A DNA stretch of 21,951 nucleotides from a virus. The position numbers were made by a program, and so were the translations under genes. Location of the stretch: positions 1 through 21,951 of the IMG/VR virus record IMGVR_UViG_3300008416_000032; one strand, given 5' to 3'. Positions 10,993 through 20,671 of this stretch are shown one piece after another (positions within the stretch are counted from its first letter, which is position 1; every line of letters begins with the position of its first letter). A model generated the notes under the pieces. That model searched no databases, had not been told where the DNA came from, and was given only the letters and a program-made list of their open reading frames with translations.

Positions 10993-11088
10993 ATGGCTCA
11001 TCCGAGCATAGAGAAGATTCGTTATGAGCAAAGAATGAAAGCGGGCGGTTGGGCGGGCATTAGGAAAATAAATATATTATTCTCTTGA
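10993..11088 (+). CDS. 31-residue micro-protein
   Basis: The ATG follows a near-perfect AAAGGAGGTGATGCC site, among the strongest in the window. The peptide starts MAHPSIEKIRYEQRMKAGGW and is basic. Its stop TGA is part of the -35 box of the ncRNA promoter. The RBS strength is the main evidence for translation. Confidence 0.55.
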   Translation: MAHPSIEKIRYEQRMKAGGWAGIRKINILFS

Positions 11089-11112
11089 CATCTTTGGCAA
11101 ATAGTCTATTAT
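11085..11112 (+). promoter_or_regulatory. sigma70-type promoter of the 347-nt ncRNA
   Basis: TTGACA at 11085-11090, a 16-base spacer, and TATTAT at 11107-11112, with a start predicted around 11118, where the first helix of the RNA begins. Confidence 0.7.
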
Positions 11113-11117
11113 GACTA

Positions 11118-11464
11118 TTACATCCTCCGGCTGGTTACGGCTGGAGCCTCCAGATTCTTCGGACTCTGGAGTATTGTAATGCGGGAACAGGACGTATTTG
11201 GCTGAGCAAGCGTTTGTACGCCCTGAACTCTATGAGATGGTGCTGTTGAGCTTAAGCCAATAGCGGAGAAAACTAACTTGGTTAGCCCGTTATTGTCGGC
11301 AGCACCAAAGGAATTAACATACTGCAAGGATGGAAAAACAGTATGATAGACTTATCTACCAAGTGTAGAAAAAGAACTTTTGTCGTTATGCGGCAATTGC
11401 AGAGTAAAATGCGGTCAGCTTCGTCTAAGTCCAACCTTAGATTATAAGTTGGCCGCTTTTTTTT
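11118..11464 (+). ncRNA. large structured ncRNA, about 347 nt
   Basis: This promoter-to-terminator unit has no credible ORF and contains ordered helices. A three-way junction closes with ATTACA 11117-11122/TGTAAT 11175-11180. It encloses CTCCGGCT/GGCTGGAG (11125-11146) and a UUCG-capped hairpin (11148-11171). Then come CAGG.CGTA/TACG.CCTG near 11189-11226, GGTGCTG/CAGCACC near 11239-11305 enclosing CAATAGCG/CGTTATTG and CTAAC/GTTAG, a 7-bp CATACTG/CAGTATG hairpin at about 11318-11345, and the terminator. It lacks tmRNA, 6S and RNase P hallmarks. By location it resembles the large phage RNAs (GOLLD, ROOL) but is shorter. Family unknown. Confidence 0.65.
11411..11464 (+). terminator. intrinsic terminator of the ncRNA
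   Basis: GCGGTCAGCTT (11411-11421) pairs with AAGTTGGCCGC (11446-11456) with two G-U pairs. The apical loop folds again (TCTAAG/CTTAGA), and eight T follow. Its loop sequence 11430-11439 is perfectly complementary to 11480-11489 downstream. Confidence 0.8.
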
Positions 11465-11497
11465 ATAATACAGTTAATTTAAGGTTGGATAAGGCGT

Positions 11498-11614
11498 ATG
11501 CAACAAAAGCGACAAGACGAGAGCGGACTTGACCGGAGTTTGTGTCGTGCCAATGCGGATATACAATGGCTGAGTGTACCACCTGTCAAGAGATATAGGG
11601 ATTATAATAAATAA
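11498..11614 (+). CDS. 38-residue micro-ORF with IQW..YRDY motif
   Basis: ATG behind TAAGG. The product starts MQQKRQDESGLDRSLCRANA and ends DIQWLSVPPVKRYRDYNK. Its end matches the peptide encoded at 1626-1685 (IQWAIHPARLGNYRDYRK): IQW, P and YRDY-K are shared, as is a 13-base identity (TATAGGGATTATA). Recurrence of the reading frame near two structured RNAs suggests a real conserved peptide. No known family. Confidence 0.45.
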   Translation: MQQKRQDESGLDRSLCRANADIQWLSVPPVKRYRDYNK

Positions 11615-11739
11615 CCTTGCTCCCCTGTATGCAGGATAAAGCTAATAGGGTTTAATCCGTATAAACTCGTTGGAAAAGGAAGGTTAGATGAACGGTTAAC
11701 AAGTAGAGATTGTTAGTTTGTCAGTCCGTATAGGCTAAG

Positions 11740-12057
11740 ATGAGAGAAACAAGTATAAACCAGCCCGATTTAGAAGATTTGAAGACTTACGGCAACAAAG
11801 GCAAAGCCAGCCAGGAGGATTACACAGCAGGGATAATAAGTGCCATAAGAGGTTGTTTGGACGAATCTTTGCATCTTTTCGAGCATGTTGAACCGAGAGG
11901 TGAAGCCCAAAAATCTACAAGAGACAAGGCTTTTGAGGTTATAGATTTAACATCAAAGACGTATTTAGCAGATATGGAGGCAGCATTTGGAATTAAAAAG
12001 TACGCCCCTCCCACGCATATCATCGAAGAAGGGGCGATAGTGTGTGAGGCTCAATAG
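11740..12057 (+). CDS. phage hypothetical protein
   Basis: The protein has 105 residues. The central part (QEDYTAGIISAIRGCLDESL, then TRDKAFEVIDLTSKTYLADM) is helical, and the C-terminus (PTHIIEEGAIVCEAQ) is short. No clear RBS precedes the ATG; the 125 bases upstream hold further pairing (TAACAA/TTGTTA with an outer ACGG/CCGT, near 11690-11732). It converges with the minus-strand operon; a GAGGCT/AGCCTC hairpin without U-tract spans 12046-12061. The coding call rests on composition. Confidence 0.55.
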   Translation: MRETSINQPDLEDLKTYGNKGKASQEDYTAGIISAIRGCLDESLHLFEHVEPRGEAQKSTRDKAFEVIDLTSKTYLADMEAAFGIKKYAPPTHIIEEGAIVCEAQ

Positions 12058-12573: not shown

Positions 12574-12644
12574 GGCCGTCGGAAAGACTCGGACTTTCAT
12601 CTCTGGCTTACAAAACCAGCGTTCTACCGTTGAACTACGGCGGC
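12574..12644 (-). tRNA. tRNA-Thr (anticodon TGT)
   Basis: Read on the minus strand, the cloverleaf is complete. Acceptor GCCGCCG/CGACGGC (one C-A mismatch), D arm GTTC..GAAC, anticodon stem CTGGT/GCCAG with loop TTTGTAA (anticodon TGT, reads ACA), variable loop AGAT, T arm GAAAG-TCCGAGT-CTTTC. Total is 71 bases with discriminator C. CCA is not encoded. The T loop has C in place of T at position 55, and the acceptor mismatch is unusual, so the tRNA may be weak or edited. It lies inside the minus-strand operon. Confidence 0.9.
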
Positions 12645-16750: not shown

Positions 16751-16953
16751 TGAGTTTTTTGAAACCCAAGACAATACCCCAGCCTTCGGTAGCCGAGCCG
16801 GAACCGGCGCCACTTGAGCTTGTGTCCGAGACCTCTGAAGACGTTAAGCAACAAGAGGCACGAAAGCGTCGGAGGCGAAGTGGTCGTGGTCGCACGGTTG
16901 TAACCGGCGAACTTTCACCGGAAGTTGTAGGGAAGAAGACTTTACTCGGATGA
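16750..16953 (+). CDS. small basic protein preceding terminase
   Basis: The protein has 67 residues. A Pro/Glu-rich start (SFLKPKTIPQPSVAEPEPAP) is followed by a basic run (ARKRRRRSGRGRTVVTGELS) and GKKTLLG. The pattern RRR.GR..T..TG.....KTLLG is a well-known small protein found next to head-tail genes of podo- and siphoviruses, probably disordered and virion-associated. RBS GAAGGAGAAATA; its stop overlaps the terminase ATG. Confidence 0.75.
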   Translation: MSFLKPKTIPQPSVAEPEPAPLELVSETSEDVKQQEARKRRRRSGRGRTVVTGELSPEVVGKKTLLG

Positions 16954-18581
16954 ACATAACCCCTCAAAAACTTGCACAAGTCAACGCCGGATATTGGGCT
17001 ACTCTTAACGAGATTAAGCTCCAACGGTCGGTGTATACTTTTTATAACCACGAATACCAAGTCGAGCCGATGGGAAACAATTGCAAGCGGGTATGTTACA
17101 TGAAGGCTACTCGTGGCGGTTTTAGTGAAATAGAGATACTCAAAAGTCTTCATGGCATGATATACGGTCGTTACCAAGAGGGTGTTTTATATTTATTTCC
17201 CACCACCGATGACGTTAACGAATTTAGTAAAAGTCGTTTTGCCCCGTTGCTTTCTTCTAACCGGTTAGCCATAGGCCAACATGTTAAGAGTGGTGGCAAG
17301 GGAACTGACACGGCTTCTTTGAAGAAGATAAATAAGGCTTTTTTATATTTACGAGGCGCGCGTTTAAGTGAGAAACGTGGGGAACAATCCGAATCTTCCA
17401 AGATGAAGAGTATTGGAGTTGATAAGATAGTTTTCGACGAAGTTGACCACATGGACGAAGAGGTCATCGCCAAGGCTCGTGGTCGTTATTACGACTCTCC
17501 TTGGCAGGAAGAAGTCTTTATTGGAAACCCAATTATTCCAGGTCTTGGTATTGACCAGCAATGGCAGAAGTCAGACCAACGACATTGGTGGAGGGAATGC
17601 GCATCTTGTGGTAAATATACTTGTGCGGAACTATTCTTTTTTGAAGACCCCGAAAGATGTATAGGTGTTAGGGCCGATGGTAAGGGTTACATAGCTTGCA
17701 AGAATTGTGGTCGGGAAGTCTTTATCAAAGACGGCCAATGGCAACCGGAACTAAAAGATAATACAAACTACATGAAAGGTTACAGGTGGTCTCAGTTAAC
17801 AAGTGCAGTTTGTGACCCGCTTGACATTTTACGTGATTTCCGAGAGCCGCCCGAAGGTAACATTGCTGATGTTTACCGATTAAGGTTAGGTCTTCCTTAT
17901 ATCGCTGACGAAGACAGATTAGTGGAATCTCAAGTATATGAATGTTGTGGGATGGAAGAGATGCATCCTTCCCATGAGGGTTCGTGTGCTATGGGAGTTG
18001 ACGTTGGCAAGATAAAGCACATTGAAATAGGCATTAAGACGGGCAAAGAACAATATCGATTATTGAAGATTGCGAGATTATCTTCGTGGGATGACATACA
18101 TATCTTAGCTCGAAAATTCCACGTTAAGAGTTCTGTTGTTGATATACGTCCTTACGAGGACAGCGCAAGAGACTTTCAAACTAACGCAAGGAAATATGGC
18201 AACAAGGTATTTTTGTGTGAGTACAAGGAAAACACACCACGAGGCACGATTTATAACGATAAAACCGGAATAGTTAGTGTTCATAGAACCGAGATATTTG
18301 ACGCAACTCACCGAATGGTTGTTACTCCTGGCATGTTGACTATCCCTCGATATTGTCTTGAGATTAAAGAGTTCGCAAAACAAATGTGCGGGGCGTACAA
18401 GATATTGGAGACCAACAAAAAAACAGGTACGAGCGTATATCGGTACAAGGGTAGTAATGAGCATTATCGAAACGGCTTGAATTATTTTAAGTTGGCAGCA
18501 GATAGATGTCGGATAGTTCGGGCGGGAACTCATAAGACTAATAAACAGACAACAGTAATAAGCGATTATGCCAAAATTTAA
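16950..18581 (+). CDS. terL: terminase large subunit, GpA-like
   Basis: The protein has 543 residues. It is the ATPase/nuclease motor that cuts and packages phage DNA. Seen: a deviant Walker A, KATRGGFSE at 52-60; Walker B VDKIVFDEVD at about 157-166; a GNP coupling motif near 192; and a zinc site CASC (217-220) with CKNC (250-253), typical of the lambda GpA branch. The nuclease shows D351 in MGVDVG, D398 in VVDIRPYED, and a late acid near 518 (YFKLAAD). Length fits the family. It starts at an ATGA overlap and is followed by two small genes, then the portal. Confidence 0.9.
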   Translation: MNITPQKLAQVNAGYWATLNEIKLQRSVYTFYNHEYQVEPMGNNCKRVCYMKATRGGFSEIEILKSLHGMIYGRYQEGVLYLFPTTDDVNEFSKSRFAPLLSSNRLAIGQHVKSGGKGTDTASLKKINKAFLYLRGARLSEKRGEQSESSKMKSIGVDKIVFDEVDHMDEEVIAKARGRYYDSPWQEEVFIGNPIIPGLGIDQQWQKSDQRHWWRECASCGKYTCAELFFFEDPERCIGVRADGKGYIACKNCGREVFIKDGQWQPELKDNTNYMKGYRWSQLTSAVCDPLDILRDFREPPEGNIADVYRLRLGLPYIADEDRLVESQVYECCGMEEMHPSHEGSCAMGVDVGKIKHIEIGIKTGKEQYRLLKIARLSSWDDIHILARKFHVKSSVVDIRPYEDSARDFQTNARKYGNKVFLCEYKENTPRGTIYNDKTGIVSVHRTEIFDATHRMVVTPGMLTIPRYCLEIKEFAKQMCGAYKILETNKKTGTSVYRYKGSNEHYRNGLNYFKLAADRCRIVRAGTHKTNKQTTVISDYAKI

Positions 18582-19015: not shown

Positions 19016-20671
19016 ATGGCTGATGAAAGAGCAATAGAAGTAATTAAGGAACAGGAGCGCGAAGAGCAGAACGCTTCTAACTTCCGCAACTTATATCAGG
19101 AAGTTGCAGACCACATGCTCCCGCGCGAGAACCAGATAATAGGAGTTCGCACACCAGGTGAGGACAAATCACAACAGATTTTAGACCCTACGGCAATGCT
19201 TGATTTACAGGACATGGCTTCGGGTTTATCTGCTGCCTTCTTCCCGCCAGGAGAACTCGCATTCGGCCTTACTGTTAAGAACAGGGAAATTGCGAACATG
19301 GATGTGGTTAAGCGCTATCTTGCGTTTGCCACCCAGATTACGCACGATGAGCTTTTTGCCTCCAATTTCATGCTGCAACTGAATGAAACACTTTCCTCAT
19401 TGATAGGGTTTGGTACTGGTTGTCTTTTTTCTGAATGGAATCTCGGTCTCAATTTTAAAGATTGGGACATATCCTTTTATACTATCAAGCAAAACAGTGC
19501 AGGTCTTGTAGATACTCTCATATTAAAATACCCGCTTACCGCAAGACAAGCTGTTCAGGAGTTCGGGGAAGACAATGTGGGTGAAAAGGTTCTTTTGGCT
19601 TTCAAAAATCCTGAAACAATCTCTAAACCATTTGATTTTATCCATCGAGTTGGGCCAAGAGCGGAACGAAATCGGAAATTTACTGACTTCTTGAATATGC
19701 CTTGGGAATCTCTTTACGTAAACATCGAAGACCAGATTATTATAAAAGGTATCGACCCGAAAGGTATGGATAACGAAGGTGGTTTCGAGGAATTCCCATA
19801 CTCAGTACCGAGATGGAAGAAATCGTCCAATGAAAAATACGGTAGAGGTCAGGGGACTATCGCTTTATCGGTGTCTAAAGAACTCCAACAGATGCACTCT
19901 GATTTTATCGAATGCGGTAACAAGTGGAACAATCCACCGAGGGAAGTTCTTGATAACGCAGTAGAGGGCAGGGTAGATGTAAGGCCTGGCGCTGACAATC
20001 GTGTAACGGCGATGAACTCGATAAGAGCCATAGACGACGGGATTAGGGGGAATTTTCCCATAACGAAAGATATGCTCGAATTTGAGCAGGGTATAATTCA
20101 CAGAATCTTCTTCAAGGATGTTTTTGCGCCGTTAGCAGAATTGACTGGCGATAGACGCACAACGCTTGAAATTAGTGAAAGAATAAAACAAGCGGCAAAA
20201 AAACTTGGCGCTCCTCTCTATCGACTCCAAAGCGAATTGCTTACTCCTAATATCACAAGGGATGTATTACTTCTGATTAGGAACGGTGTAATACCACCCC
20301 CGCCTGTGGAACTTCAAGGGCAGGGTTTTGGTATCGAATATATTAGCGAGCTTGCCTTGGCAATGCGAGACCAACAGGCGAGAGGGTTTGTACGATTTGC
20401 CGACCTCGTATCTGCGCTTGACCCCGTATTCCCAGGTGCGAAGGACATTATAAATATCGACAGGGCGTTACCTGATATTGGCTTTACGTTTGGCATGAAG
20501 GTGGAACATCTTTCAACGAAAGAAGAGATTGCGGAAACAAGACGGGTTCGTGCAGAGCAATTGGCCGAGAAGCAGGCTATAGAAGCGGCTCAAGTTGCCG
20601 CTCAAGGTTATGGCCAGACCACGAAGGCTCCCGAAGAGGGGTCTTTGGCAGAAATTGTTACAGGAGTATAA
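19016..20671 (+). CDS. portal, T7-type head-to-tail connector
   Basis: The protein has 551 residues and matches the head-to-tail connecting protein family (podoviral portal, dodecamer at the head vertex). Seen: the N-terminal FRNLYQEVADHMLPRENQI; DPTAMLDLQDMASGLSAAFF, the classic block that precedes FPPGELAFGL; then GTGCLFSEWN, later PRWKKSSNEKYGRG, RRTTLEISERIKQAAKKLG and the C-terminal FTFGMKVEHLSTKEEIAETR. Length is normal for the family. A T7-type portal next to a GpA-like terminase is a mosaic combination. Confidence 0.9.
   Translation: MADERAIEVIKEQEREEQNASNFRNLYQEVADHMLPRENQIIGVRTPGEDKSQQILDPTAMLDLQDMASGLSAAFFPPGELAFGLTVKNREIANMDVVKRYLAFATQITHDELFASNFMLQLNETLSSLIGFGTGCLFSEWNLGLNFKDWDISFYTIKQNSAGLVDTLILKYPLTARQAVQEFGEDNVGEKVLLAFKNPETISKPFDFIHRVGPRAERNRKFTDFLNMPWESLYVNIEDQIIIKGIDPKGMDNEGGFEEFPYSVPRWKKSSNEKYGRGQGTIALSVSKELQQMHSDFIECGNKWNNPPREVLDNAVEGRVDVRPGADNRVTAMNSIRAIDDGIRGNFPITKDMLEFEQGIIHRIFFKDVFAPLAELTGDRRTTLEISERIKQAAKKLGAPLYRLQSELLTPNITRDVLLLIRNGVIPPPPVELQGQGFGIEYISELALAMRDQQARGFVRFADLVSALDPVFPGAKDIINIDRALPDIGFTFGMKVEHLSTKEEIAETRRVRAEQLAEKQAIEAAQVAAQGYGQTTKAPEEGSLAEIVTGV

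Follow-up and report, generated by a model that had tools for sequence, protein, structure and literature searches.

The window examined here, a virus record of 21,951 bases, encodes a terminase large subunit (positions 16950–18581) and a head-tail adaptor (phrog_332, 19016–20671) and holds, at 11085–11464, a genuine structured noncoding RNA (ncRNA) gene of about 350 bases that falls outside the catalogued RNA families. The following features were assigned to this gene:

11085–11112, plus strand: putative sigma-70-type promoter, TTGACA-16-TATTAT (consensus match only)
11116–11230, plus strand: 5′ structured domain, consisting of a three-way junction with a UUCG-capped arm (11116–11181) and a hairpin (11183–11230) (MFE fold)
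11239–11306, plus strand: nested helix domain, GGTGCTG/CAGCACC around CAATAGCG/CGTTATTG (MFE fold and comparison with the related contig L025)
11351–11374, plus strand: hairpin H1, CUU A UCUAC CAAGU GUAGA AA AAG (R1 covariance model, 55.5 bits over 11351–11403; covariation in 102 matches)
11375–11403, plus strand: linker and hairpin H2, apex GUCG-UUAUG-CGGC (R1 model; near-identity in contigs L025 and L122)
11411–11464, plus strand: intrinsic terminator, GC-rich 11-bp stem followed by U8 (sequence and fold)

The promoter matches 11 of the 12 consensus positions and places the predicted transcription start at about 11116–11119, which is the position of the first helix; promoter-like sites are no more frequent in this region than expected by chance (3 vs. 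3.6 expected). The segment 11116–11470 was found to fold with an MFE of −125 kcal/mol, compared with −93.4 ± 5.35 kcal/mol for 100 shuffles (z = −5.9, none of the 100 being as good), and its minus strand folds far less well (z = −2.8). The computed fold contains the three-way junction and all the nested helices, with GGTGCTG/CAGCACC paired at 11239–11245/11300–11306 and the innermost helix CTAAC/GTTAG located inside CAATAGCG/CGTTATTG. The long loop of the terminator caused the terminator scan to miss it. The ncRNA region contains no credible ORF. All of this agrees with the earlier note, which had inferred from the letters alone a highly structured RNA without an ORF, a promoter whose start coincides with the first helix, these same helices, and a terminator with an 11-bp stem and eight T. 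An Rfam search, proposed in that note, was run and returned no family at gathering score or at E<1 for the window ncRNA; the Rfam covariance models of GOLLD, ROOL, tmRNA, 6S and RNase P RNA gave no match there either, in keeping with the note's exclusion of the last three classes. A tRNA-Thr (tgt) gene follows the ncRNA at a distance of 1.1 kb but is encoded on the other strand (12574–12644, minus strand), and the approximately 270 nt that separate the next ORF from the terminator (11470–11740) contain no credible gene and could leave room for a second RNA.

Among related phage contigs retrieved via TerL, L025 has a homolog of the same architecture, including the GGTGCTG/CAGCACC helix, the conserved segment and the terminator. 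The nested helix of L025 is altered on both sides, with pairing kept by compensatory changes. Contig L122 shares 95% identity with the window over 11346–11406, followed by a terminator-like sequence, and has a different 5′ half. Terminator-like ends are visible in both contigs, H2 is almost identical among all three sequences, and no similarity to the 5′ domain (11116–11230) was found in L025 or L122. Since L025 and L122 both share the 3′ module, this module represents the conserved part of the window RNA; the rest of the RNA, i.e. the 5′ domain and the GGTGCTG domain, may contain further modules. The absence of an Rfam match, the homolog in L025 and the recurrence in L122 support the view expressed in the earlier note of a structured phage ncRNA outside the known classes in a GOLLD/ROOL-like setting. 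The likeness to GOLLD and ROOL is that these, too, are phage ncRNAs of large size that occur near tRNAs and whose 5′ part is modular; however, the window has no match in Rfam and its conserved core is much smaller. Out of reach of the sequence-only reading was that the conserved part forms a unit of its own, for which a partner can be recognised, namely the PDC-M04 (RlfA/RlfB) gene pair.

This unit comprises 53 nt (11351–11403; R1 E-value of 1e-10) and is composed of H1, a linker of 4 nt (mostly 4–5 nt across the loci) and H2. In general, H1 has an outer helix of at least 3 bp, formed by the flanks CYUA (5′) and AAARG (3′), an internal loop with A opposite A-N, an inner helix UCURC/GYAGA and a loop CANGY, and H2 is a stem of about 8 bp whose upper part includes CGU/GCG. 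The R1 covariance model, built on 30 sequences, yields 102 matches in 100 loci. In these matches 93.6% of the cells are paired (80.4% in shuffled alignments), two-sided changes number 250 (82.7 shuffled) and are seen at 14 of the 16 pairs, and the covariation score reaches 0.364, compared with 0.160 for shuffled data (0 of 500 as high) and at most 0.125 when slid. The 1.96 Mb of fetched sequence contains 129 distinct H1 matches vs. 0.7 in mononucleotide shuffles; however, most loci in this set were retrieved by the H1 pattern itself. Because the loci were chosen by pattern, the informative features are the unfixed ones, that is, the covariation of the outer helix, H2 and synteny. The variation within H1 is largely G-U or compensatory, which points to RNA. 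In Rfam scans of the window and about 45 other unit-bearing loci the unit itself was never matched; none of the DUF3800-I to -XI models matches it, the DUF3800 RNA matches in these loci sitting at other positions, and no mention of the motif sequence was found in the literature as far as open-licence papers are concerned. As judged from sequence comparison only, the two-hairpin unit is a new RNA element with covariation that is not represented in Rfam.

The distribution of the unit was established by exact-pattern scans of viral contigs (at least 119 contigs in the last scan), BLAST against named phages and the covariance model, the scans and the model together placing it in about 100 otherwise dissimilar phage loci. 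The carriers include Staphylococcus kayviruses (>200 records, phage K among them), a Twort-like phage, E. coli phages P1/P7, B. subtilis phage phi3T, a Vibrio phage, Geobacillus phages and many metagenomic phages. In cellular genomes the unit was detected in 0 of 348 and in 2 of 349, one of the two being within a prophage; the multi-genome search used stricter filters, and weak matches can be missed. A BLAST search of plasmids and E. coli genomes with the consensus unit gave nothing convincing. The units are intergenic and mostly oriented as their neighbouring genes. A tRNA gene is found within 150 nt of 17 of 101 units (6.4 expected), and the tRNAs near the unit are almost exclusively on the same strand (76 vs. 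1 opposite). Beyond the window, the module is embedded in ncRNA/tRNA regions of phages, among them the tRNA/lncRNA region of phage K, which is transcribed according to RNA-seq data (PMC9241854), a paper in which lnc001 and lnc002 are seemingly interchanged between the text and Table 1. In the same phage, a stretch between the unit and tRNA-Met (about 1565–1630 of L070) was noticed by eye to resemble a tRNA, having a T-arm and an acceptor stem of 7 bp, though it is not called as one. T4 rnaC/rnaD were set aside, as no unit is present in the tRNA region of T4.

In phage P1, the unit lies convergent to, and just past, rlfB in the gene pair rlfA (DUF3800)–rlfB. The sRNA predicted there spans about 52912–52975 on the P1 minus strand. 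PADLOC identifies RlfA as PDC-M04A (1e-95) and RlfB as PDC-M04B (3.5e-52); PDC-M04 is a candidate defence system only, and its defence role rests on database candidacy. Loci found by RlfA/RlfB homolog searches in viruses and Pseudomonadota were then scored by R1 without filters, and 8 of 8 clear rlfB lineages proved to have a convergent unit, encoded on the strand opposite to rlfB, at the 3′ end of that gene (P1, 40.0 bits; L248, 39.6; L302 and L301, 33.5 each; L300, 31.1; L284 and L286, 27.6 each; L285, 20.3). An independent PDC-M04B search of 398 Bacillota genomes gave 5 loci, every one of them with a convergent unit (28.1 to 19.5 bits), so that the unit occupies the rlfB 3′ end in 13 of 13 clear rlfB lineages or loci of viral, Pseudomonadota and Bacillota origin. 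Some of these matches, such as those in L285 and L311 (19.5 bits), are individually weak, and no unit was found in L287, where the RlfB match is partial (E = 7.7e-4). Gene order in the annotated loci thereby establishes strict synteny of the predicted unit with PDC-M04. In the reverse test, performed on DUF3800 genes at large, the unit occurred in just 1 of 28 cellular DUF3800 loci, itself an rlfAB module; hence the link of the unit is with the RlfA-RlfB pair, and DUF3800 genes in general were dropped as its partner.

In several modules (P1, L302, L301, L308) H1 is immediately preceded by a promoter-like sequence, which is convincing in the last three and not in L248 or L285; the unit is therefore probably a stand-alone sRNA of approximately 60–70 nt in these modules. 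The outer helix is CUC/GAG with A-N in the complete modules and CCU/AGG or CUU/AAG with AA in most phage orphans, so that system-linked and orphan units differ somewhat in sequence, which weighs against their equivalence. RlfB itself has no Pfam match, and its AlphaFold model (pLDDT 83) gave no significant match in PDB (all E>0.1). The entry of highest probability (0.54) in this fold search was the colicin E5 tRNase, and the entries further included HigB and colicin D; such model-based resemblance is a lead only, a mere hint of an RNase.

The genes on either side of the units are co-directional, and a stop codon often immediately precedes the unit; TerS/TerL and late regulators are among the neighbours, and a U-tract follows H2 in 23 of 101 cases (9.9 expected). 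These observations would suit a cis-acting element, one that works on host RNA polymerase as a PUT-like antiterminator or influences transcript stability or termination in many phage untranslated regions, the link with rlfAB being one use among several. However, in the 13 rlfAB loci the unit is always opposite to the rlfB strand and often promoter-proximal, a terminator is located about 10 to 60 nt downstream of it in the window, L025 and L122, and R1 finds nothing in the genome of HK022, which speaks against a PUT antiterminator. A cis-acting role is therefore considered unlikely, albeit the most plausible of the alternatives. The notion that the unit is a terminator itself was rejected, the U-tract being present in just 23/101.

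None of the 48 other unit-bearing phage records tested has RlfB, which makes their copies of the unit orphans; DUF3800 is absent from 18 of 19 unit-bearing phage records tested, the exception being P1. No rlfA-rlfB pair was seen beside the window unit when the flanking ORFs were read by eye, and the window copy is an orphan unit, not a PDC-M04 system. Structure, conservation, phage enrichment, synteny with rlfAB and orphan status are thus established, all on sequence evidence. We favour, as somewhat better than evenly supported, the reading in which PDC-M04 has an sRNA component so far unrecognised, namely this unit, and in which the copies carried by phages serve as RNA decoys or as mimics of an antitoxin. 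That the proteins bind the RNA, that RlfAB act in defence and that the phage RNA is a decoy are inferences, and there are no binding, toxicity or defence data. RlfB and/or RlfA would bind the unit sRNA as the antitoxin or cofactor of an RNase-type effector, and phages without rlfAB would make the same RNA, alone or inside larger ncRNAs together with tRNAs and other RNA modules. The phage-made RNA would saturate the RlfAB proteins of the host and so blunt the defence, in parallel to Racrs in the case of CRISPR-Cas and to abiF RNA in the case of AbiF. It cannot be shown that the host of the window phage has PDC-M04, since that host is unidentified.

The coexistence in P1 of rlfAB and the RNA, together with an annotated C1 operator (Orlf) between repL and rlfA, leaves some room for a different role, in which the orphan RNA would assist, or act as antitoxin to, something that the phage itself encodes, e.g. 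in regulating the phage's own RNase, and would not be an anti-defence decoy. This seems less probable still than a cis-acting element, because the other unit-bearing records lack RlfB and no protein family shared among the neighbours of the units was found.

Mimicry of the Cas12a repeat by H1, i.e. an RNA anti-CRISPR of the RacrV-A kind, was the first idea drawn from UCUACCAAGUGUAGA, and the inner stem UCUAC/GUAGA of H1 is that of the Cas12a repeat. The pseudoknot of Cas12a repeats has a consensus of 5′ AAUU and 3′ U, which is not met by H1 with its CYUA/AAARG outer helix. Carriers of the unit include phages that infect S. aureus, E. coli and B. subtilis, species in which Cas12a is not known to be typical. 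V-A Racrs do exist and work (PMC10651486), and DUF3800, for which an RNase H fold is predicted, has been linked before with ncRNAs and with a Cas12a2 branch (PMC10910872). However, the outer helix of the unit covaries, H2 is part of the unit as well, and the unit accompanies rlfAB, not cas12a; on these grounds and that of host range the idea was dropped and is held to be very improbable. The decoy reading has a parallel in the Racrs, which are solitary phage copies of a defence-system RNA, often behind a promoter, directed against the host system (PMC10651486). Unlike in that case, the RNA mimicked by the unit belongs to RlfA/RlfB (PDC-M04) and not to a CRISPR array, and the inhibition is inferred.

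A second parallel is offered by abiF RNA (RF03085), a demonstrated antitoxin that binds AbiF and neutralises its toxicity in trans (PMC12373285). It is likewise a small hairpin RNA beside a toxin gene, and its orphan copies adjoin the unit in phages without AbiF: abiF RNA was detected next to the unit in L118 and L167 and more weakly in L082, and no Abi_2/AbiF protein was found in the L118 and L167 records. In all three loci the abiF RNA or look-alike directly follows the unit, as was also seen by eye in L131 and L132. However, abiF RNA differs from the unit in sequence, structure and partner, and it lies upstream in the abiF transcript, whereas the unit is convergent with rlfB. By analogy, the proposed mode would resemble those of Racr RNA anti-CRISPRs and abiF antitoxin RNA, the unit itself belonging to neither family. 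The DUF3800-I to -XI RNAs of Rfam are comparable in being sRNAs that adjoin DUF3800 genes, and orphans of these, too, occur near the unit, namely a DUF3800-VIII RNA above its Rfam cut-off in phi3T and, in a noncoding region of phage K (L070 2171–2307, plus strand), a DUF3800-I RNA of 43.4 bits, just under the cut-off of 44.2; no DUF3800 protein is present in the phi3T or phage K records. The unit, unlike these RNAs, escapes their models and is tied specifically to the RlfA-RlfB pair.

Taken further, PDC-M04 would be a three-part RNA-controlled antiviral system composed of an RNase-like RlfB, an RlfA with the DUF3800 RNase H fold and an sRNA of approximately 60 nt. Phages infecting several bacterial phyla or more would then broadly carry the lone sRNA, joined to other orphan RNAs of antitoxin type in modular ncRNA arrays, as an RNA-based counter-defence arsenal; the case for this wider picture appears evenly balanced. 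The tie between an unassigned phage ncRNA and a specific gene pair makes its function testable in phage P1 and E. coli K-12, brings an RNA into a candidate defence system so far annotated as two proteins, and could account for some of the noncoding RNA that phage tRNA regions contain, e.g. that of phage K. It also suggests that phages commonly use decoy RNAs against defences other than CRISPR.

Several loci (L215, L116, L155, L185, L188, L196, L106, L079) have two copies of the unit, those of L215 (1442–1524) being only 59 nt apart and resembling antitoxin repeat arrays. One spacer of a Pseudanabaena CRISPR array (L107 2591–2614) contains H1. In L138, a 92-kb phage contig with >20 tRNAs, the unit is located immediately upstream of a permuted tmRNA, and GOLLD RNA is present as well.
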